NCBI RefSeq assembly: GCF_017068455.1
Contig: NZ_CP070608.1
Location: 1,345,488-1,409,487 of the forward strand
Length of the DNA: 64,000 nucleotides
Direction of reading: 5' to 3'
Source: Fulvivirga lutea
Lineage (GTDB): Bacteria > Bacteroidota > Bacteroidia > Cytophagales > Cyclobacteriaceae
In this document: positions 8,014-45,488 of the stretch, piece by piece
Numbering within the stretch: position 1 is the stretch's first letter
Layout: the number at the start of each line of letters is the position of its first letter
The notes under the pieces: generated by a model
Seen by the model: the letters and a program-made list of their open reading frames with translations, nothing else
Databases searched by the model: none
Told to the model about the DNA's origin: nothing
Translations under genes and position numbers: made by a program

Positions 8014-8730
8014 CTATTCCCACCATTTTGCTTTTTCTATTTCTGAAGCTTTTTTCCATTCCTCAGAATCAGGGTGAGCGGTGTAAATTATTCTTAGTGG
8101 CCACCAACCTACTTCATCATACTTTGAATTTGGAATTACATCCGGACCATCACTTATATTGAAATCTTCTGGTGTGCAAGGAATTTGATAGTCTGACCAA
8201 CAACAGACTATTTCATTTTTGGAGTTGTAGCCTTTCCATTTACCTATGAAACTCCATATTCTTGGCAGGATAACATAGGATCCATTGGCTTTAACGACCT
8301 GATTATCCTCAACTGACCAGTAGGCTGTGAATTGCCCCTCAAAAATACCAGAAGATTTATTTGTTGGGTCTTCCCTTAAAATAAAATGGCCTGTTATTAC
8401 TCCTTCCACATCGATAATTTCTGATTCTACTTGATGTGCCTCCGATAGCATGAGATTTCCTTCAAACGGAACAATGTTATTGCCAACTTTTGACTTACCC
8501 TTTAGACTATAAATAAAATCATTCTCCGTTTTAGATACATTACTAAACTTAAACGTGATTCTTCTGAATTTCTGACCAATTATACCTTCATGCTTAAATT
8601 CAGTATTTATTAGTCGTGCAAAATCAAGATTTTTGACTTGATGGATTGTATTCTCATTACTATGTTGTAAGTCCTGTCCATTAGCATGAAAAGAGGTTAG
8701 AAATAAAAGAAGAGATATTAATTTTTTCAT
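8014..8730 (-). CDS. Exported protein of unknown function
   Basis: 238 residues with a clear signal peptide (MKKLISLLLFLTSFHANGQ). The middle consists of alternating beta strands (for example FKHEGIIGQKFRRITFKFSN) that suggest a small beta-barrel or lipocalin-like domain. The C-terminus has CCWSDYQIPCTPEDFN, with three cysteines. No family is recognised. It is the first gene of the four-gene minus-strand block, with 62 bp to the next start. Copy B of the 84-bp repeat lies 100 bp upstream of its start, in the probable promoter region. Confidence 0.7.
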   Translation of the reverse strand: MKKLISLLLFLTSFHANGQDLQHSNENTIHQVKNLDFARLINTEFKHEGIIGQKFRRITFKFSNVSKTENDFIYSLKGKSKVGNNIVPFEGNLMLSEAHQVESEIIDVEGVITGHFILREDPTNKSSGIFEGQFTAYWSVEDNQVVKANGSYVILPRIWSFIGKWKGYNSKNEIVCCWSDYQIPCTPEDFNISDGPDVIPNSKYDEVGWWPLRIIYTAHPDSEEWKKASEIEKAKWWE

Positions 8731-8831
8731 TTGTCTAACTCAGTCGAACTAAGCTAATGATTTTATAGAATTTTATCAGGACAAAATGTGTCTATATGAT
8801 TAAGTTGAAAAAGTGTAACAATAACTTAAGC

Positions 8832-8915
8832 TGTGAACACCAGCCTTTTTCAGAAGGTAGATTTGCAGTTTACGGAACAAAGCACCGGCCGAGTACCGCA
8901 GATGCACCGCTTTAC
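8832..8915. repeat. 84-bp dispersed repeat, copy B
   Basis: Second copy of the repeat at 5947-6030, same orientation, with 7 differences; its first hairpin is degenerate. It lies in the 330-bp gene-free stretch 8731-9060. Both copies are followed by GCC(A/T)AACTTTA, with about 17 extra bases before it in copy B. Apart from the repeat, that stretch shows nothing recognisable. Confidence 0.75.
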
Positions 8916-9060
8916 CAAGGGTAATTTGAGTGGCCTAACTTTAGCATGTCTGAAAGAAGAAAATACTACCTAGTGCTCGCTATAATCGTTGTAAAATGCT
9001 ATCCTAAAAATATTGGAATAGAACGAAATATTATTGGTTTTTAGCTCTAATTGTCTTTTG

Positions 9061-9594
9061 TTAATTGGTATTTAAGTTATTGATAATATTGTTTTTGTGG
9101 TGTAACACATGATAATTTGTAAAATACATCATTTCTTTGATAGTCAGCATTCCCAAAAGTGGATGGGGAATTCTAAGTGTATTTAATTCCTCTTCTGAAT
9201 ATTGTTCTAAGGTATTTTCTATTTTATTAGTTATTTGAAAAAATTGATTCAACAGGTTTGCTCTTTCGTACCCATTCACTTTTACGGGTAAAAAATTTCC
9301 AAATGCCTTGTAACCCTCCGAAAGTTTGGTTTTATATCGATTTGTTAGTGTGTAATAATCGGATGAAATACCTCTACCTTTTCCAAATTTATTTATGATT
9401 AATTTCTTGTTTGGAAGTATACTTGACAGAGGTTTTATGCTCTTCAAAATATGATCTAACTCTTGCGCTGCACTCCATTTTGTGTTTCTCCCAATTGCAA
9501 ATTCTTCGTTCGTGAGACTATTCAAATATTGGAAAAAATCTAGATGTCGTTGTTTAAATTCTTGAATTAAATCTTCTTTAGTGTAATGCAGCAT
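9061..9594 (-). CDS. DinB family protein
   Basis: A four-helix-bundle protein of the DinB/YfiT putative metal-dependent hydrolase superfamily; 177 residues is the usual length. The metal-site histidines are visible: one in WSAAQELDHILKSI (about residue 48) and two in YHVLHHKNNI (about residues 162-166, pattern HxxxH/HxxHH). Members act as thiol transferases or hydrolases, but most are uncharacterised. No signal peptide. It lies 78 bp downstream of the large permease gene on the same strand and could be on the same transcript, though function gives no link. Confidence 0.85.
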   Translation of the reverse strand: MLHYTKEDLIQEFKQRHLDFFQYLNSLTNEEFAIGRNTKWSAAQELDHILKSIKPLSSILPNKKLIINKFGKGRGISSDYYTLTNRYKTKLSEGYKAFGNFLPVKVNGYERANLLNQFFQITNKIENTLEQYSEEELNTLRIPHPLLGMLTIKEMMYFTNYHVLHHKNNIINNLNTN

Positions 9595-9672
9595 AATTCT
9601 AGGTCAAAGCCGATAAATCCTAATTAGATTAATCACCATTAAATGAGAGAATTAAAGGGGGAAGTATAAACG

Positions 9673-12300
9673 TCATTCAATTCTCAAACCATTGACAGGA
9701 TTTGATTTATTTATTTTTCGGATTTGTGTAGATATAATTAGCAATAATACGAGACTAAGAATCGTAATGGCAATTCCCAAAATCTCGATTGACATTGGTA
9801 AGTGATAACTATAAGTGAAATTTAAGATAAACCTCATAATGTAAAAACTTACGGGTGCGCCAATAACGGTTGCTATAGAAAGTAGAATTACATATTGTTT
9901 CGAGATATTAGAAGTTAGACTCTTAATTCCTGCGCCTAATACCTTGCGAATGCTGAATTCTTTAATGCGCCTAGTGACATTCAGCGTTATGAGGCCATAC
10001 AACCCCATGCTTGCTAATAATATGGCTAGGACTGCAAAAACCTGCCAAACATGAGCGTGGACATCAATTCGCTCATAATAGTTGCCCCATACGTCCTCTT
10101 GATATCCTCCGTCAAATGGTATTTCAGGGTATAATTGAGCCCATATAGCTCGAGCAGCCTCATAAGTCTCTTTTTCGGAACCAGGTCTTACCTTCATTGA
10201 TAAATAATTAAAATTATCTTTTTCGGCTAATTTAAATATTGTGGGCTGAACCTCTTCACCAAAGTTATCGCTATGTACATCCTTTGCCAATCCAATGATG
10301 GTATACTCTACTGAATCAATTTTGAATAACTCATCGATTGGATCAGTGAGACTAAGTTTGTTTACGAAAGTTTCATTGACAATTATTTTTGTTTTATCGC
10401 TTTCAAAATCTTCATTAAAGACACGACCTTTTAGTAAATCTATCCCCATAGTCTCGAAGTAATTGTCCCCTACAGAGAATTGATCTACCTCAAATTGTCG
10501 GTCAGGTTTATTAATTACTATTTGCAGCCGATTTTTCCCCAGATGGTGTTTGGCGCCTGACACTGACAATACATTTGGGTTCTGTTCAAAAAGAGGCTTC
10601 ATTTTTTCAAAGCCTGAATCATCAGGAATTGATATATACAAAACCTGTCGGTTATCATAGCCCCAGCTCCTTTCTGATAAATAATTTGTGTTTAAGGTGA
10701 ATGTAACTGCAGCTGTTATAAAAATATATGCAAGTATCAGCTGAAAACCCAGCAGTAATTTTGTCAACCTGTTTTTGCTTCCAAATTTTACAGACCCTTT
10801 GAGTATTCCGGTTATCTTAAGTGAAGAAATATAAAAAGCGGGATAACTTCCTGATAGTATTGCTGTGAATAACAGGACAGCGGGTAGGTATATCCATAAA
10901 GTTGGGTCGATAAAAGTGAACCCCATGTTAAAGCCGTTGATCTCTTCAAACCATGGAATAAACAGAACGGCTCCTAATAGTACTCCAAAAGCTAGCGCAA
11001 AAGAGGTAATAACTATATTTTCTGTCAGGAATTGTACAATGACTACCTTACGAGAAGCCCCGACAGTCTTTCGAACTCCTATTTCTTTAAGCCGCCTAGT
11101 TGCAGATACAATTGCGATATTAACGTAATTCAAGCATGCCAGAAGAAGCATCGCACCGGCAATGAAGGATAAAAAATAACTAGCTTCTATATTGCTCTTG
11201 GAGCCTCTGACAATCCTATCTCTTATGTTGTGTGAATTTAAATGTAAAGTGGTTAATGGTTCGAACCCGAAAGAAGCAATCACCCACTCTTCATTAACAG
11301 CACTGTTGTGAAAATGCTTGTATTTCTCCATTCGTTGCTGAATAGATGAAATGTTGCTGGGGTCATCTACCTGTATTAAAGTGGCATCCAGTGTTTCATT
11401 CCAGTCTTGGAAATCATATTCAGGAGATGAATTTCTGAGGTTCTCAATATTAACCAGGAAATTAAAACTAATCGTCCGAGACTCGGGGAACTTTTTAGCC
11501 ACACCAGAAACTTTAAATACCTTACTCGTGGTTTCATCAAATTTTAATTTTATATCACGTCCTATAGGATTGTCTCCTCCAAAATACTTGATGGACATAT
11601 TTTCACTTAAAATGATGCTATTTATATCGTTTAATGAACTGGATGTTCCCCATTTCATTGGAAAGGTGAGCATCTCAAGAAAATCGGAATCTGTAAATCG
11701 CACTGTTTCATGAAAAACATTGTCTTCAAGTTTTAGTATAACATTCCTATCTTCAATTCTTGAGACCTTTTCAATATTTGTAAAATCATTTTTGAGCATT
11801 TCAGCAAGTGGCTCAGGAGACTTGCCAAACTGTTGTAACGAACCATCGCGATCGGAAAAAAATGTAACAAGATATACTTTATCTTTATTTTCATGAAACT
11901 GATCTGTTTTATAAACAAACTGAATATAGGCATAAACGAAAATGACAAGACCTATTCCTACAGACAATCCGAATAGGTTTATGAATGAATTTAAAGGGTT
12001 TCGCATCAGATTTCTGATGGCAACTTTTGAGTAGTTTTTGAACATAGCTGCTTGTATTAATGATTTAAGTGTAGTTCTAGATTTTATATTTGAAAATTCT
12101 TCATCGGCCATAGGACTGATTTCTCCAAATTCGGAAACCGCCAAATCAAAAGCCTCTTTTTTATTGTATCCTCGAGCTTCGAGATCATCAATATGATCTC
12201 TGATATGTAATTCCATTTCCAGGATTGTACCATCATCAAAAGCTCGATGTTTTCTAAAAGATCTGAGCCAGGTTTTTATAGCTTTATCAATATCAAACAT
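9673..12300 (-). CDS. MacB/FtsX-type ABC transporter permease with PadR-linked prefix domain
   Basis: 875 residues. An N-terminal cytoplasmic helical domain (about 1-70, beginning MFDIDKAIKTWLRSFRKHRA) is the permease prefix found in proteins encoded next to PadR repressors. Then come a membrane helix (about 98-120), a periplasmic MacB-like core, a first FtsX domain (about 370-495, with the RRLKEIGVRKTVGASR motif), a second periplasmic core and a second FtsX domain (about 755-870, RRIKEFSIRKVLGAG). This type VII ABC architecture moves or senses substrates on the periplasmic side rather than pumping across the membrane. No ATPase gene is adjacent, so one must be supplied from elsewhere. The PadR gene is 4 bp upstream. 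Confidence 0.92.
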   Translation of the reverse strand: MFDIDKAIKTWLRSFRKHRAFDDGTILEMELHIRDHIDDLEARGYNKKEAFDLAVSEFGEISPMADEEFSNIKSRTTLKSLIQAAMFKNYSKVAIRNLMRNPLNSFINLFGLSVGIGLVIFVYAYIQFVYKTDQFHENKDKVYLVTFFSDRDGSLQQFGKSPEPLAEMLKNDFTNIEKVSRIEDRNVILKLEDNVFHETVRFTDSDFLEMLTFPMKWGTSSSLNDINSIILSENMSIKYFGGDNPIGRDIKLKFDETTSKVFKVSGVAKKFPESRTISFNFLVNIENLRNSSPEYDFQDWNETLDATLIQVDDPSNISSIQQRMEKYKHFHNSAVNEEWVIASFGFEPLTTLHLNSHNIRDRIVRGSKSNIEASYFLSFIAGAMLLLACLNYVNIAIVSATRRLKEIGVRKTVGASRKVVIVQFLTENIVITSFALAFGVLLGAVLFIPWFEEINGFNMGFTFIDPTLWIYLPAVLLFTAILSGSYPAFYISSLKITGILKGSVKFGSKNRLTKLLLGFQLILAYIFITAAVTFTLNTNYLSERSWGYDNRQVLYISIPDDSGFEKMKPLFEQNPNVLSVSGAKHHLGKNRLQIVINKPDRQFEVDQFSVGDNYFETMGIDLLKGRVFNEDFESDKTKIIVNETFVNKLSLTDPIDELFKIDSVEYTIIGLAKDVHSDNFGEEVQPTIFKLAEKDNFNYLSMKVRPGSEKETYEAARAIWAQLYPEIPFDGGYQEDVWGNYYERIDVHAHVWQVFAVLAILLASMGLYGLITLNVTRRIKEFSIRKVLGAGIKSLTSNISKQYVILLSIATVIGAPVSFYIMRFILNFTYSYHLPMSIEILGIAITILSLVLLLIISTQIRKINKSNPVNGLRIE

Positions 12301-39553: not shown

Positions 39554-40429
39554 TTATCTCTTCTTACCAAACCCATGAAAGTTCTGGTGAACAAAATCTT
39601 GAGGGAATTTTTCTACTCCGGGAAAACCAAGTTTTATGTCGCGCCCATCATGCGGAATGTAGTTGGTTTTGAAGAGATAGTCCCAAATGCTTAGGGTTAG
39701 GCCAAAATTTACACCATATCTCTTTTCTTTAGGTAAGTTATAAGCATGATGCCAAATGTGCATTTGTGGATTATTGAAAATATATTTTAACGGGCCCAGA
39801 TTTAATCTGAAGTTGGAATGGTTGAAATGGCCAACAGCCAGCGTAAAAATATGAATGATAAAAAAATCACGTAGCCCAATTCCGATTAAGGCTAATGGTA
39901 TATACTCAATCGATCGATACACCACATTTTCCATCCAGTGATAACGCAAGTGAGCGGCAAAACCCATTTGTTCAACGGAGTGATGTACTTTGTGAAATTC
40001 CCAGAGAGCAGGAACCCGATGAAGTAAGCGATGCGTCCACCATTGCACAAAATCCCTAACTACAAATCCTATTAACAGATGAGCCCAAACTGGCCATGTC
40101 ATCACTTCAAAAGCCACCAGGTTGGTAATACCAATGCTTTTAAGAGCATCATTAAAAAAGTTAACCACCACATCGCTTGCTGCATTGTAAATGATCAGAG
40201 AAAAAAGAAAAAAGTTGAAAAACATGTAGAAGAAATCCAGCCAGAAATCTTTACGGAAGGTAGGTTGGCTTTTTCTCCAGGGTTTAACTAATTCAATAAC
40301 AAAAAAGAAGGCAGAAACGCCAACTAACCAGTAAAAGTAACTATGCCAGCTGGGGTTGGTTATCTCATTCCACAGGTAGCTGGCGTACCCTTTATACCCT
40401 TCAATAAAAATTTCTAAATAGCGTTCCAT
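39554..40429 (-). CDS. Sterol desaturase/fatty acid hydroxylase family membrane protein
   Basis: 291 residues with several membrane helices (about 30-50, 70-95, 115-140 and 180-200). The di-iron histidine clusters are intact: HRLLHRVPALWEFHKVHHS (HxxxH and HxxHH), GHFNHSN and HIWHHAYN. The family uses O2 to hydroxylate or desaturate lipids; in bacteria the substrates include sterol-like lipids and fatty acids, but here it is unknown. Its single-gene setting gives no clue. It is divergent from the large AraC-fusion regulator gene. Confidence 0.92.
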   Translation of the reverse strand: MERYLEIFIEGYKGYASYLWNEITNPSWHSYFYWLVGVSAFFFVIELVKPWRKSQPTFRKDFWLDFFYMFFNFFLFSLIIYNAASDVVVNFFNDALKSIGITNLVAFEVMTWPVWAHLLIGFVVRDFVQWWTHRLLHRVPALWEFHKVHHSVEQMGFAAHLRYHWMENVVYRSIEYIPLALIGIGLRDFFIIHIFTLAVGHFNHSNFRLNLGPLKYIFNNPQMHIWHHAYNLPKEKRYGVNFGLTLSIWDYLFKTNYIPHDGRDIKLGFPGVEKFPQDFVHQNFHGFGKKR

Positions 40430-40642: not shown

Positions 40643-42313
40643 ATGAAGCCAGCAACTCAATACACAAAAAGTGGTCGTATTAACATAGCCTACCAGGTTT
40701 TTGGTTCAGGTTCTGTAGACCTGGTTTATATACCTGGCTGGGTTTCTAATATCGATTGGATGTGGGCATGCCCCGAGCTTGTTGGCTTTCTGGAAGAGTT
40801 AGGTAAAATATGCCGTGTAGTACTTTTTGATAAAAGAGGTACTGGTCTGTCAGATCGGGTGGTGGAGCTTTCCACGCTAGAAGAGCGCATGGATGACATA
40901 AGGGCAGTGATGGATGCCATTGGCTCTGAAAAAGCTATATTATTTGGACATTCTGAAGGTGGTTGCGTTTCAGCACTTTTTGCTGCCACCTACCCAAATA
41001 GAGTAATATCTATGATCACTTTTGGAATATTTGCAAAGCGCAGATATGCACCGGAATATCCTTGGGCACCAACTGATGAAGAGCGCCAAAAGGTGTATGA
41101 TATGATTGAAAATAGCTGGGGTAGTGGAGATATGAATTTAGAATCTCTTGCACCTTCTAAGGCCAATGACCCTGTTTTTATGGATTGGTTAGCCAACTAT
41201 TTTCGTTCCGGTGCGAGCCCCAGCGCGGCCATGGTGCTCACTAAAATGAATACTGAAGTCGACATCATTAATATTTTAAGCTCTATTAAAGTACCTGCTT
41301 TAATTATGCAGCGTACCAATGATATTGATGTTAAAATAGAAGAGGGAAGATTTATTGCGGAGAGGATTAAAGGGGCAAAGTTCGTAGAGTTCGATGGGGA
41401 TGACCATTTATTCTGGGCAGGAAATACGGATGAAGTTCTGGAAGAAATGAAATCTTTCATTGCTAATGTTGAACCCTCAGCTACTTATGAGGTTAGACTT
41501 TATACCGTTGTGGCTGTACGACTCATTTCGAATGGAGAAGAAAATATAAATAGTCAGGAGCTTGTTAATCAAAGGGTAGCTCAATACAGAGGTAAAATAG
41601 TGCAGTATGATAATGATTCATTTACTGCTGTTTTTGAGGGACCAAGTAAAGCAGTTCATTGTTGTTTAGACTTATTTGAGACTTTTGGTAGTTCCAATGT
41701 ACAATTAGCTGCAGGTATACATATTACTGAAGGTTTTGTAGATGAAACTTACTATTTGAGCGATAAAACAAAAGATTTGAATCACTCAATTCTTGAACCG
41801 GCAGAACCAAACCAAATATTAATTACACAACCTGTTAAGTTTTTACTTTCTGGGGCAGGCTTAACTATTACACAATATAAGACTATTGTTGATCCACTTA
41901 GTGGCGAAGCGCAGCCACTTTTCATGGTTATGGATCACTTAGATGAAAACAGCAGATCGGATATAACAATTAAAAATAAACTCCCACTAAATGATTCTTT
42001 TTTGGAGAGCGTGCTGCAAATTATCGACAAACATTTGAGTGATGAGTTTTTTGGTGTGGAAATGCTTTGCCGTGAAATTGGCATGAGTGAACGACAAGTT
42101 CAAAGAAAACTTAAGGCCATCTCAAATAAATCTCCAAACCAGTTAATTTCCTCAGTGAGGTTGCACCGCGCTAAAGAACTTATTTTAAAAAATGAAAATA
42201 ATATTGCCGAAATAGCATTTCAAACCGGGTTTTCCAACCCATCATACTTTTCTAAAAGTTTTAAGAAAGAATTTGGCGCTAGCCCCTCAGATTTAGTTCA
42301 AGGAAGGGCATAG
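40643..42313 (+). CDS. Alpha/beta hydrolase - degenerate class III cyclase domain - AraC HTH fusion
   Basis: 556 residues in three parts. (1) Residues ~1-275: alpha/beta hydrolase with nucleophile Ser104 in GHSEGG, acid Asp near 227-229 (TNDIDV) and His255 in GDDHLFW. (2) ~280-430: a class III nucleotidyl cyclase homology domain (NQRVAQYRGKIVQYDNDSF, EGPSKAVHCCLDLF, AAGIHITEGFV), lacking the first metal-ligand Asp (YTVVAVRL in its place) and the GDG motif (YDNDSF). (3) ~448-553: AraC HTH pair (CREIGMSERQVQRKLKA and NNIAEIAFQTGFSNPSYFSK). The first two parts have the order known from mycobacterial Rv1900c. Paired TGTCGG elements lie directly downstream. Confidence 0.87.
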   Translation: MKPATQYTKSGRINIAYQVFGSGSVDLVYIPGWVSNIDWMWACPELVGFLEELGKICRVVLFDKRGTGLSDRVVELSTLEERMDDIRAVMDAIGSEKAILFGHSEGGCVSALFAATYPNRVISMITFGIFAKRRYAPEYPWAPTDEERQKVYDMIENSWGSGDMNLESLAPSKANDPVFMDWLANYFRSGASPSAAMVLTKMNTEVDIINILSSIKVPALIMQRTNDIDVKIEEGRFIAERIKGAKFVEFDGDDHLFWAGNTDEVLEEMKSFIANVEPSATYEVRLYTVVAVRLISNGEENINSQELVNQRVAQYRGKIVQYDNDSFTAVFEGPSKAVHCCLDLFETFGSSNVQLAAGIHITEGFVDETYYLSDKTKDLNHSILEPAEPNQILITQPVKFLLSGAGLTITQYKTIVDPLSGEAQPLFMVMDHLDENSRSDITIKNKLPLNDSFLESVLQIIDKHLSDEFFGVEMLCREIGMSERQVQRKLKAISNKSPNQLISSVRLHRAKELILKNENNIAEIAFQTGFSNPSYFSKSFKKEFGASPSDLVQGRA

Positions 42314-42323
42314 GAAGTTACTT

Positions 42324-42420
42324 TGTCGGTTTTGTTATAGTCGGTCGGAATATTCTCAGGCCACTGTCGGAAAAGTACTCACATTCACTGTTTTTATGCT
42401 AGCCGACAGGCTTAATTACC
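42324..42420 (+). promoter_or_regulatory. 97-nt conserved regulatory element, copy 1 (paired TGTCGG)
   Basis: TGTCGG at 42324-42329 and again exactly 41 bp later at 42365-42370, plus GTCGGTCGG at 42340-42348. It aligns without gaps over 97 nt with 44896-44992 at about 60 matching positions, the best part being from 42375 to the shared TGCTAGCC and on to TACC. It precedes the SprB/cytochrome-YceI-DUF5777 operon (start 42550) and lies 11 bp after the AraC-fusion gene. Binding by that regulator is an inference. Confidence 0.55.
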
Positions 42421-42498: not shown

Positions 42499-42549
42499 CA
42501 CCCTTTTGTTTTGATTGCCAATTCATCATTAAAACAAAATTATTACGCC

Positions 42550-43341
42550 ATGGAGGTGAACAAAGTAATTTCAATCATATTGATTTTAGCCATATTTGGT
42601 ATTTTTTCATGTACGTATGATCAAATCGAACCACAAGTTGATTGCACAACATCACCTGTGGAAATGGTATTGATTGAAAGTAAAGATGCAGAGTGCAGTT
42701 CTTCTAATGGTAGTTTTTCTGTTGCTGCGAGTGGTGGCGAATTGCCCTATACCTTCAGCTCAGAAGCGGGCAGCAACTCAGATGGTGTTTTTAGCAATGT
42801 AGCAGCCGGGACGTACAATGTGATAGTAAAAGATGCTAAAGGATGTTCTTCAGAACTGGCGGTAACTATTCAGAATTTAGGTGGAGTTAATTTGGACGAT
42901 ATTACAGCAAGCGAAGCGGGTTGTGGTTCTGCGAATGGCTCAATTCAAGTGGCAGTATCAGGCGGGGAAGAACCCTATTCATTTTTTATTAATGGAGGTG
43001 CAGCACAAACAAGTAATGTATTCAATGGATTGGATGCTGGTAGTTATTCGATAACTGCCATAGATAATCTGGACTGTGAAGTAAAAAGTAATGTGAAAAT
43101 CACGTCAGGCGTGAGCTATCAAAGCTCAATTAAGGGTATCATAGAAACCAACTGTGCTATTTCAGGTTGCCATAATGGAAGTGTTTCGCCAAACCTCACA
43201 TCTTTTTCAAGCATACAATCAAGCGCTAACAGAATAGAAGCAAGAACAGCCAACAGATCAATGCCACGAGGACGAACATTAACTCAACAAGAAATTGACA
43301 TGATCGCTTGTTGGGTAGATGATGGCGCACTCCAAAACTGA
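42550..43341 (+). CDS. Lipoprotein with two SprB-type repeats and a CX4CH cytochrome c-like domain
   Basis: The frame opens with TTG at 42511, but the ATG at 42550 starts a signal peptide ending in the lipobox FSC; the product is 263 residues. Two SprB-type repeats follow (CSSSNGSFSVAASGGELPYT and CGSANGSIQVAVSGGEEPYS, each about 70 residues). The C-terminal ~70 residues form a cytochrome c-like domain: NCAISGCHNG has the heme-attachment spacing CX4CH in place of CX2CH, and SMPRG supplies the usual Met axial ligand, ending IACWVDDGAL. Fusion of adhesin-like and heme domains is uncommon. It is the first gene of a three-gene operon with YceI and DUF5777 genes. Confidence 0.83.
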   Translation: MEVNKVISIILILAIFGIFSCTYDQIEPQVDCTTSPVEMVLIESKDAECSSSNGSFSVAASGGELPYTFSSEAGSNSDGVFSNVAAGTYNVIVKDAKGCSSELAVTIQNLGGVNLDDITASEAGCGSANGSIQVAVSGGEEPYSFFINGGAAQTSNVFNGLDAGSYSITAIDNLDCEVKSNVKITSGVSYQSSIKGIIETNCAISGCHNGSVSPNLTSFSSIQSSANRIEARTANRSMPRGRTLTQQEIDMIACWVDDGALQN

Positions 43342-43381: not shown

Positions 43382-43939
43382 ATGAAAAAGATAAAAACGA
43401 GCATTTATATACTGCTGCTAATTATAATTTCAGTATCTAAAATACTAGCTCAAAACCCATTGATCGACCATAATGGAACTGCAACCTTCTTTTCAGAAGC
43501 ACCGATGGAAGATATAGAAGCCATTAATAGAAAGGTGATTGGAGCAATTGACCTTCAGAAAGGTATTTTGGCAGTAACCATGCAGATTAAAGGATTCCAC
43601 TTTGATAAAAGTTTGATGGAAGAACACTTTAACGAAAATTACCTTGAGTCTGATAAATACCCAAAGGCATCATTTAAAGGGATGATCAAGAATTTTAGTG
43701 AATTAGACTTTAGCAAGCAGGGCAACTTCGAAGCTCAAGCTATTGGTGAATTGGAAATTCATGGCGTTACTAAACCGTTGAAAACGATGGTGCAATTCGC
43801 TATTTCTGGGGATAAAATATCAGCTAATACGTCATTCGATATCTCCATTGCAGATCACGATATTAAAATTCCACGGTTAGTAATAAAGAATATTGCTGAA
43901 GTGGTGGAAGTAAAGGCGTCATTTAACTTTTCTATGTAA
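43382..43939 (+). CDS. YceI family protein
   Basis: 185 residues, exported (signal peptide ending ILAQ). The mature part is the YceI lipocalin-like barrel that binds polyisoprenoids and amphiphiles. The motif set is typical: NRKVIGAIDLQKGILAVTMQIKGFHFDK, LMEEHFNENYLESDKYPKASF (the 'M..Hfne.yld..kyP.a.F' pattern) and the closing VVEVKASFNF. It lies 40 bp after the SprB/cytochrome gene and 2 bp before the DUF5777-type gene. Such YceI genes commonly travel with cytochrome and barrel genes in Bacteroidetes; the role is probably in envelope electron transfer or lipid handling. Confidence 0.92.
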   Translation: MKKIKTSIYILLLIIISVSKILAQNPLIDHNGTATFFSEAPMEDIEAINRKVIGAIDLQKGILAVTMQIKGFHFDKSLMEEHFNENYLESDKYPKASFKGMIKNFSELDFSKQGNFEAQAIGELEIHGVTKPLKTMVQFAISGDKISANTSFDISIADHDIKIPRLVIKNIAEVVEVKASFNFSM

Positions 43940-43941
43940 TC

Positions 43942-44811
43942 ATGCAGGGGATAAAAATAGTAATCGGATCATTATTATACTTATTGACGATTTCAGCCAT
44001 TGCTCAAGATGATTTGTTAGCAAGCTTGGAAGAAACCCAATCGAACGAGCATACATGGGTGGAGGCTACCTTTAAAGGAACTCGATTGATTAATGGACAC
44101 ACAATCGAAACCCGTAAGAAAGGCGTTATGGACTTTATTATTTCGCACCGATTTGGAACCATTGATGGCGGAAGTTATGATCTATTTGGATTGGATGTAG
44201 CCACGATGCGAATCGGATTGGAATACGCATTATCAGATCGATTATATTTTGGTTTGGGCAGGAGTACTTTCGAGAAAACATTCGATGGATTTTTGAAATA
44301 TCGCTTGATTAGACAATCCAAAGGAAAAGGAAGTAAGCCTTTCTCGGCAACTTGGTTGAGTTCAATGGCCATTAAAACATTAAAAGATCCGGAAAGGGAG
44401 CTAGGCTTTACTGATAAAGTGGCAAATACGCATCAATTATTAATAGCGAGTAAAATTAGTAGTGGCATTTCATTGCAGCTGATGCCCACATTTGTTCACA
44501 GAAACCTTATTGGTGAAGAGGATATTAATAATGATGCCTACGCATTGGGCGTTGGCGGAAGGGTTAAAATTTCTCAGCGACTTGCCCTCTGTGCTGAGTA
44601 CTACCATCAATTTCAGAAGTTAAATGAAAACAGTACCAATGCCATAGCAGTGGGAGTAGATATTGAAACGGGCGGGCACGTATTTCAATTACAATTTACC
44701 AATGCCACAGCGATGATTCCGAAGGGTTTTGTAACAGAAACAACCAATGACTTCTTCGAAGGTGAAATACATTTTGGGTTTAATGTATCCAGAACATTTC
44801 AACTTAAGTAA
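43942..44811 (+). CDS. DUF5777-type outer-membrane beta-barrel protein
   Basis: 289 residues. A signal peptide ends at ISAIAQ. The mature protein shows the features of the DUF5777 barrel family: ETRKKGVMDFIISHRFGTID, YDLFGLDVATMRIGLEYAL, LYFGLGRS, followed by alternating strands to the end (FNVSRTFQLK). It lies 2 bp after the YceI gene, so translation is coupled. In Bacteroidetes the trio cytochrome-like protein, YceI and DUF5777 barrel recurs. A strong terminator follows at 44850-44879. The function of the barrel is unknown. Confidence 0.85.
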   Translation: MQGIKIVIGSLLYLLTISAIAQDDLLASLEETQSNEHTWVEATFKGTRLINGHTIETRKKGVMDFIISHRFGTIDGGSYDLFGLDVATMRIGLEYALSDRLYFGLGRSTFEKTFDGFLKYRLIRQSKGKGSKPFSATWLSSMAIKTLKDPERELGFTDKVANTHQLLIASKISSGISLQLMPTFVHRNLIGEEDINNDAYALGVGGRVKISQRLALCAEYYHQFQKLNENSTNAIAVGVDIETGGHVFQLQFTNATAMIPKGFVTETTNDFFEGEIHFGFNVSRTFQLK

Positions 44812-44895: not shown

Positions 44896-44992
44896 TGTCG
44901 GATTTGTAACAGTTGTTAGTTGTGGTAGTGCTGCCTTGTCGGGATAGTGAAAGCATTTACCGTATTTGTGCTAGCCAAATGCCTTAAATACC
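44896..44992 (+). promoter_or_regulatory. 97-nt conserved regulatory element, copy 2 (paired TGTCGG)
   Basis: TGTCGG at 44896-44901 and 44937-44942, again 41 bp apart, then the shared GCATTTACCGTATTTGTGCT region and a CTTAAATACC end. Same length and no gaps against copy 1. It lies between the terminator of the upstream operon and the 150-residue gene (start 45036 or 45078), where its promoter should be. Confidence 0.55.
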
Positions 44993-45035: not shown

Positions 45036-45488
45036 ATGATTGGGTCGTTAAAAAAGAAGGAATTAACAAGAGGAAAAATGAAATTAACATTGCATTGGAA
45101 CAACGGATTAATTTATCATGAAGAAATGCCGGTAGGTGATTTTATGAATGATGAGATACAATCGAACGAGTATAAATTAAACAAGTGCAGGCTGCAGTTT
45201 GAAAGTATAGACGTTAGTAAGAAGCAAGTGGCCATTATGGATGAGAATAGAAATAGGTTGGGCATGATTTATAAATCCAGATGGTCGAAAAGCGCGAAGA
45301 TAAAATTGAATGATGAGGATGAATATGAGTTAAGGCCAGCCGGATTATTAAGCTCGAGATGGAAGCTCTTTGCTAAGAATAATGAGCTAATAGAATTCAC
45401 CAAACGCATTTTTAGAAAAGGTGAGATTAACTACATCTTTCAAGATGAGCTTCTGATTTTAGCTGGATTGTATGTGTTGAATGATTAA
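45036..45488 (+). CDS. Small protein of unknown function
   Basis: 150 residues from the ATG at 45036, or 136 from the ATG at 45078 (MKLTLHWNNGLIYHEEMP), which may be the better start since the first 14 residues (many Lys) look untranslated-leader-like. Beta-rich, cytosolic, with basic surface segments such as LGMIYKSRWSKSAKIKL and SSRWKLFAKNNELIEFTKRI. No family is recognised; a pleckstrin- or tubby-like beta sandwich is possible. It stands alone, preceded by copy 2 of the 97-nt element and followed by a terminator. Confidence 0.65.
   Translation: MIGSLKKKELTRGKMKLTLHWNNGLIYHEEMPVGDFMNDEIQSNEYKLNKCRLQFESIDVSKKQVAIMDENRNRLGMIYKSRWSKSAKIKLNDEDEYELRPAGLLSSRWKLFAKNNELIEFTKRIFRKGEINYIFQDELLILAGLYVLND

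Follow-up and report, generated by a model that had tools for sequence, protein, structure and literature searches.

A putative one-component regulator of Fulvivirga lutea that joins an alpha/beta-hydrolase, a degenerate class III cyclase domain and an AraC-type DNA-binding domain, with an adjoining predicted direct-repeat operator

The regulator gene and its surroundings

The window analysed here is a stretch of 64,000 nucleotides from Fulvivirga lutea (contig NZ_CP070608.1, positions 1,345,488 to 1,409,487 of the forward strand), and all coordinates given are those of the window. An open reading frame with an ATG start codon (40643..42313, +) encodes a protein of 556 aa, in which a hydrolase, a dead cyclase and an AraC HTH follow one another, as judged from the ORF, from Pfam and NCBIfam matches and from homologues. 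The alpha/beta-hydrolase domain (residues 2-275; 40646..41467, +) was delimited by Pfam and alignment, with Abhydrolase_1 matched at residues 27-256 (54.4 bits). It is followed by a degenerate class III cyclase domain (residues 282-432; 41486..41938, +), a linker of low model confidence (residues 433-450; 41939..41992, +), recognised by pLDDT and sequence identity, and an AraC-type double HTH (residues 451-553; 41993..42301, +). The HTH_18 profile (PF12833) matched residues 475-551 with 82.4 bits over profile positions 1-77 of 80, so that the double HTH is present. An earlier note on this DNA, made from the sequence without database searches, had placed an AraC DNA-binding domain at the C-terminus, and this match confirmed it.

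Likely targets of the regulator lie downstream on the same strand. They are the genes for a lipoprotein with an SprB repeat and a C-terminal CX4CH motif (42550..43341, +; Pfam SprB and motif), a YceI-like protein (43382..43939, +; PF04264, 53.4 bits), a DUF5777 outer-membrane barrel (43942..44811, +; PF19089, 302 bits) and, further on, a protein of 150 aa with no Pfam family above cut-off (45036..45488, +; ORF and Pfam). The start of the lipoprotein gene was set at the in-frame ATG at 42550; the start given by the ORF tool was the TTG at 42511. Upstream of the regulator, a divergent fatty acid hydroxylase gene (39554-40429, -) was observed, which is not conserved among the neighbour clusters.

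The NCBIfam model for LipJ (bifunctional lipase/adenylate cyclase, NF058673) covers residues 3-404 of the regulator (E 2e-67), and the middle domain aligns with the cyclase chain of Rv1900c (1ybt; E 1.5e-5, the best PDB sequence match). The likeness of the N-terminal hydrolase-then-cyclase order to that of Rv1900c, also claimed earlier, is borne out by these two matches. The regulator shares this order with LipJ / Rv1900c but differs in its extra AraC domain and its dead cyclase, and its score of 227.9 bits did not reach the curated LipJ cut-off of 800. The full-length structure model had a pLDDT of 83.0, with values below 50 at the linker (433-451). Mean pairwise identity in an alignment of 13 proteins was highest in the hydrolase (82%), followed by the HTH (72%), the cyclase domain (50%) and the linker (19%). 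The pattern of the three domains is the one expected if the middle domain had been freed from catalysis, with the sensor and DNA binding under selection.

A cyclase fold that has lost its active site

No cyclase family, PF00211 included, was among the 13 Pfam families matching the regulator up to E 10. An AlphaFold2 model of the cyclase domain, built with 44 sequences, had a pLDDT of 88.5, and its best Foldseek matches were the cyclase domains of Ma1120 and Rv1900c (1ybt), with E ~1e-10 and TM ~0.8; model and matches identify the class III cyclase fold. At the catalytic positions live members carry D, GDG, H or N, and R, and PMC4886424 states that His can take the place of Asn in Rv1900c. The window protein has R293, N324-D325-S326, D378 and S382 at these positions. 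Arg293 stands in place of the first metal Asp and Ser382 in place of the transition-state Arg, and neither glycine of GDG remains. The regulator lacks the residue set of a class III enzyme, which comprises two metal Asp with GDG and a transition-state pair of Asn/His and Arg. The second metal Asp, D325, is the sole catalytic residue retained. Its column in the 13-protein alignment reads D,D,E,E,Y,D,D,E,H,S,S,F,L and is not kept family-wide, and in alignments the catalytic columns of this domain vary freely among homologues. The description of the domain as dead in the earlier note therefore stands for the first metal Asp, the GDG glycines and the catalytic Arg, but has to be amended for D325, a metal Asp that is still present.

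Retention of the fold and of D325 would suit a nucleotide sensor, a domain that no longer catalyses a reaction but still takes up ATP, GTP or a cyclic nucleotide and, jointly with the hydrolase, controls DNA binding. Guanylate_cyc was also matched above cut-off at four other places in the same genome, the regulator gene not being among them, so that the cell may produce cyclic nucleotides. This option, which the earlier note had raised, was weakened and is left unsupported because the catalytic residues at the metal, GDG and Arg positions have gone and these positions vary freely. The cyclase part is also the least conserved of the three domains (50% vs 82% and 72%), and a nucleotide sensor is considered unlikely.

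The active sites of class III cyclases are shared between two subunits. Together with the retained D325, this is the argument for a cyclase that keeps low activity, or that is live with a partner subunit, as a heterodimer with another cyclase. However, no homologue set keeps a complementary half-site, and 64 of the 66 AraC-fusion rows of the tree described below were dead by the four-residue criterion with which each row was called live or dead; remaining activity of either kind is very improbable.

The hydrolase domain

The hydrolase triad was located by alignment at Ser104 (codon 40952-40954), Asp227 and His255. The triad had previously been called intact, and the alignment agreed: Ser-Asp-His was found in 130 of 131 homologue rows. 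The sole exception, G012b, reads Ser-Asn-His, with the triad Asp lost. This change of Asp227 to Asn in L042, the second G012 copy, was seen only in this paralogue and provides a natural test of the need for catalysis.

Comparison with PDB folds gave many esterases as the nearest relatives of the hydrolase domain, and also the signalling hydrolases RsbQ, KAI2 and D14. The trait of receptors of this type, an alpha/beta-hydrolase fold with Ser-Asp-His, is present in the regulator, and from the modelled fold the hydrolase may be taken as its sensor part. The receptor-enzyme duality of this fold is treated in PMC3531792.

An ordinary AraC regulator could also carry both upstream domains as remnants that only dimerise, with no ligand sensed. 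The degenerate and fast-diverging cyclase part, the broken triad of G012b and the differing target neighbourhoods (see below) would all be compatible with such baggage. Decay would not, however, leave the hydrolase as the best conserved domain (82%) with its triad kept throughout the rows but one, and there is only a small chance that the upstream domains are remnants.

Conservation of the three-domain form

In a draw of relatives, own genome included, 13 full-length homologues, each in one open frame, were present in 11 of 58 genomes, and 10 of the 15 genomes of the own genus in this draw had a homologue; the G008 copy ends at a contig boundary. A scan of genome contigs confirmed 523 relatives, the best 80 of which were analysed. 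All three domains were found in 54 of these best 80 (L044-L097), whose hosts were Bacteroidota, Balneolaceae and one contig binned as Thalassovita. The rest of the best 80 comprised 2 contig-cut loci (L098, L099), 6 hydrolase-AraC proteins without cyclase, 7 hydrolase-cyclase proteins alone, 6 with N-terminal Trans_reg_C, 2 with a kinase and 3 with an N-terminus of no identified family. In an even draw across the phylum, the three-domain form occurred in 5 of 395 genomes, own genome included, and is widespread but patchy. The architecture is shared by relatives, and a fusion artefact, which the earlier note had named as a refuting outcome, is ruled out by its conservation.

The copy in L044, the contig binned as Thalassovita (an alphaproteobacterium), is 91% identical to the hydrolase domain of the window, and the assignment of this contig is probably a binning error. 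A tandem pair of regulators was observed in one flavobacterial contig (L084:6001-7656 and 8099-9760).

A predicted direct-repeat operator behind the regulator gene

Flanking sequences were compared in 63 loci, which remained of 67 after removal of the duplicates L057, L061 and L062 and of L088, where the contig ends behind the gene. The k-mer TGTCGGAA was present in 21 of the 63 loci in the 300 bp downstream of the regulator, with 0.33 expected, and no comparable k-mer was found in the 300 bp upstream. The top 8-mer on the upstream side, ATGAAACC, coincides with the start of the gene, and autoregulation through such a motif was rejected.

A 19-bp matrix obtained by iteration gave the consensus TGTCGGAAATGTTATAGTC, in direct repeats with a period of about 21 bp. 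Sites of at least 9 bits were found within 450 bp downstream in 39 of the 63 loci, 92 of them forward and 3 reverse, compared with 1.95 in shuffles. The other 24 loci had no site of 9 bits within this distance; some of the loci lacking a near site have more distant ones and others none. Spacing was 19-22 bp in 38 of 53 neighbouring pairs of sites and 41 or 43 bp in 7. When the matrix was trained on 18 loci and applied at 10 bits to the 45 others, sites were recovered in 21 (50 forward, 2 reverse; 0.75 shuffled), and the reverse split recovered 17 of 18 loci (0.4 shuffled). At 15 bits or more, the 28 kb directly downstream held 67 sites and the other 802 kb of these loci 54, and there were no sites in shuffled loci. 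Nearly all sites outside the downstream zone have the same orientation as the regulator.

The boxes TGTCGG and GTTATAG of the operator stand about one helical turn apart, which we take to be the geometry needed by the two HTHs of one AraC monomer. The araI1-araI2 sites are likewise bipartite and recur as direct repeats at a distance of about 21 bp. From sequence, the arrangement usual for AraC/XylS regulators, with direct-repeat sites in front of the target genes, is predicted here.

Two predicted arrays were located in the window. Array 1 (42324..42404, +) precedes the lipoprotein/YceI/DUF5777 operon and has sites at 42324 (23.8 bits), 42343 (11.9) and 42365 (16.8); a fourth position, 42386, has the second box only (-10.3 bits). 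Array 2 (44896..44976, +) precedes the gene at 45036 and has sites at 44896 (22.0 bits), 44937 (19.6) and 44958 (7.2, weak). The earlier proposal of a one-component regulator gains support from this conserved predicted operator next to the regulator gene.

The exact pattern TGTCGGWWWWGTTATAG occurs once in the own genome, within array 1. The loosened motif was not enriched there (177 matches with up to 3 mismatches, 396 for the reversed control), and tandem TGTCGG pairs numbered 7, against 10 in the control, two of the 7 being the window arrays. A genome-wide regulon in the own genome is unsupported because the loosened motif falls below the reversed control. The single-site pattern had 14 matches (control 16) in 11 regulator-bearing genomes and 9 (control 33) in 47 genomes without the regulator (Fisher p 0.039), and genomes with at least one match were 8 of 11 and 9 of 47, respectively (p 0.0012). 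Co-occurrence of motif and regulator over the 58 genomes was only weak.

Neighbouring genes and the proposed mechanism

The first downstream gene was on the same strand as the regulator in 54 of the 63 loci. In 38 operator loci, the first downstream genes formed 19 blastp clusters, which indicates that the motif travels with the regulator. The operon of a cytochrome-c-like lipoprotein, YceI and DUF5777 adjoins the regulator in 16 of 67 loci, L035 and L057 being one locus. Of 13 inspected first genes of such operons, 9 encode CX2CH and 4, the window among them, CX4CH. Other first genes encode, among others, AMP-binding, acyl-CoA-synthetase-like proteins (L032, L044, L046), glutamine synthetase (L049), an ECF sigma factor (L068) and a large surface protein (L071). 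With 19 clusters among 38 loci, a single common target pathway was rejected, and such widely differing neighbours do not point to one ligand. The diversity of these genes indicates that the regulator has been linked to different outputs, with the operator moving along with it.

A tail-like contractile injection-system cluster was observed beside the regulator in L031, L034, L073, L074 and L075 (Pvc16_N confirmed in L031), with operator sites before its first gene in L034, L073, L074 and L075.

The hydrolase could alternatively be a working enzyme that removes the inducer or produces a metabolite, in which case the AraC part would exert feedback control on the pathway. The triad is intact, LipJ is counted among characterised esterases in a passage of PMC10865251, acyl-CoA-synthetase-like genes follow in the three loci named above, and in the window the regulator is preceded by the gene for a fatty acid hydroxylase. 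The 19 downstream clusters, which include glutamine synthetase, ECF sigma and injection-system genes, nevertheless share no pathway, and feedback control of this kind seems improbable.

The reading we prefer, with a probability of about 0.6, is that the protein acts locally as a one-component regulator, and that a dimerising pseudo-cyclase would relay ligand chemistry from the hydrolase to DNA. The hydrolase domain would bind, and probably attack through Ser104, a small ester- or lactone-like signal. The cyclase-fold domain would make no cyclic nucleotide and would act as a dimerising relay between the sensor and the DNA-binding domain, a role that we infer because the catalytic residues were lost while the fold was retained. 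The flexible linker may let the AraC domains of a multimer occupy several of the predicted repeats, about 21 bp apart and on one face of the DNA. The bound regulator would switch the genes just downstream, that is, the lipoprotein/YceI/DUF5777 operon and the 45036 gene, and from the orientation and distance of the sites it most likely acts as an activator. The regulator and its adjoining repeated DNA site would form a chemical-sensing gene switch of a kind that is open to testing and new to the literature so far. The operator can be put to use at once, since regulators could be placed on a reporter in a search for ligands. If the proposal is true, these proteins would be bacterial counterparts of the plant hydrolase receptors and candidates for new biosensors.

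Comparison with known systems

The most fitting name for the protein of the window is an AraC-type one-component regulator whose sensor part consists of a hydrolase and a pseudo-cyclase; it is neither a LipJ nor a cyclase nor an Mclx protein. It shares with AraC/XylS regulators the HTH_18 domain, bipartite direct-repeat sites about 21 bp apart and a flexible linker, but its sensor part is a hydrolase with a pseudo-cyclase and not a cupin-type arm domain. RsbQ, KAI2 and D14/DAD2, which are among the nearest PDB folds, likewise use a triad-bearing hydrolase fold as receptor; they signal via partner proteins, whereas the regulator has its DNA-binding domain on the same chain.

The nearest published idea is that of the mycobacterial Mclx proteins (cyclase homology - AAA/NB-ARC - LuxR), in which, according to passages of PMC4452763, a cyclase-fold domain also lies inside a putative transcription regulator and two of the three members, Mclx2 and Mclx3, are without some canonical cyclase residues. 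In contrast to the regulator, Mclx proteins have no hydrolase, LuxR instead of AraC, and AAA/NB-ARC in between; neither a LuxR HTH nor AAA/NB-ARC was among the Pfam families listed for the regulator. The earlier statement that no system of such form has been described holds in that no description of the hydrolase - dead cyclase - AraC architecture was found in open-licence PMC full texts (subscription papers lie outside this scope), but Mclx is a kindred precedent.

Origin of the family

A quick tree was built with 117 rows, after 14 of 131 had been left out as duplicates or truncated (G008, L057, L061, L062, L098, L099, L126, L128, L131, L179, L191, L203, L204, L215). A careful tree of the hydrolase domain only was built with 75 of the 117 rows; L043 was omitted for its long branch. 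Small custom HMMs built on Pfam-confirmed rows supplied the winged-HTH and kinase labels of tree rows; L200, L202, L205 and L207 were matched by both HMMs and are counted as kinase.

The cyclase was live-looking in all 7 hydrolase-cyclase rows without an extra domain. Among the 99 rows that carry an AraC, winged-HTH or kinase fusion, it was dead in 97. Live-looking cyclases were found in 2 of 66 AraC fusions, L088 (D, D, H, R) and L214 (D, D, N, K), and in none of 27 winged-HTH fusions, 6 kinase fusions or 3 proteins with an N-terminus of no identified family. L089 is half-dead (D, N, H, R). A row-wise Fisher test of fusion against cyclase loss gave p 1e-9, a value that ignores kinship and counts the three rows of unassigned N-terminus as fused; it was set aside as evidence. 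Independent pairs of fusion and cyclase loss number three at most, and all agree, a number too small for a sign test to carry weight (p 0.25).

In the 75-row tree, the three-domain proteins form one clade (100/99). The acidobacterial winged-HTH and kinase forms are a second clade (96/92 with L104, 100/100 without L104), and the forms with an N-terminus of no identified family a third (100/100). At least four changes between live and dead cyclase are needed on the tree. L085 and L090 branch first in the AraC clade (93/58), which bears on one versus two cyclase losses. In the hydrolase-domain tree, L088 and L214 are nested in this clade together with L089.

Trans_reg_C - hydrolase - dead cyclase proteins are common in a draw of Acidobacteria, with module matches in 52 of 162 genomes of one class. 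From these 52 genomes 29 loci (L179-L207) were labelled, and they are winged-HTH or kinase forms except L191 and L203, which have an N-terminus of no identified family. Further Trans_reg_C loci of this kind are L110, L115, L116, L119, L120 and L123. Proteins of the form Ser/Thr kinase - hydrolase - dead cyclase, observed in L104 (with TPR repeats) and L113, add a third output type to the module. These mostly acidobacterial proteins have the same module as the regulator and have also lost cyclase residues, but their output domains differ and sit N-terminal, and the proteins belong to a separate clade.

From the tree and the two live-looking fusions, it may be envisaged that the AraC domain was added to a hydrolase with a live cyclase, and that the cyclase would have decayed after output moved from a second messenger to DNA. 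L214, outside the training set of the operator matrix, has two sites downstream of its regulator, which score 25.0 and 20.9 bits and are separated by 41 bp. An operator already present behind a live-looking member suggests that DNA binding was gained before the cyclase decayed.

A broader reading is offered tentatively, at close to even chances: hydrolase and class III cyclase would form a portable chemosensor which, on gaining a new output (AraC, winged HTH or Ser/Thr kinase), turns its cyclase into a mechanical relay, and which in Bacteroidota has yielded one-component regulators with a multi-repeat operator and live-looking intermediates. If true, a second-messenger enzyme fold would on more than one occasion have become a mechanical relay that couples a hydrolase-type chemoreceptor to another output. 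A testable record of this change of output would run from live two-domain proteins without HTH (L100, L101), through live-looking ones with HTH (L088, L214) and the half-dead L089, to dead ones.

Hydrolase-AraC proteins without cyclase, of about 400 aa, were observed in L103, L111, L112, L117, L121, L122, L129 and L131 and at L043:6662-7912. No such operator lies close to the short forms of L103, the L111 group or L043 (scores of 15.2 bits at most). L103 groups with the live two-domain protein L101, apart from the L111 group, so that the short form probably arose at least twice.
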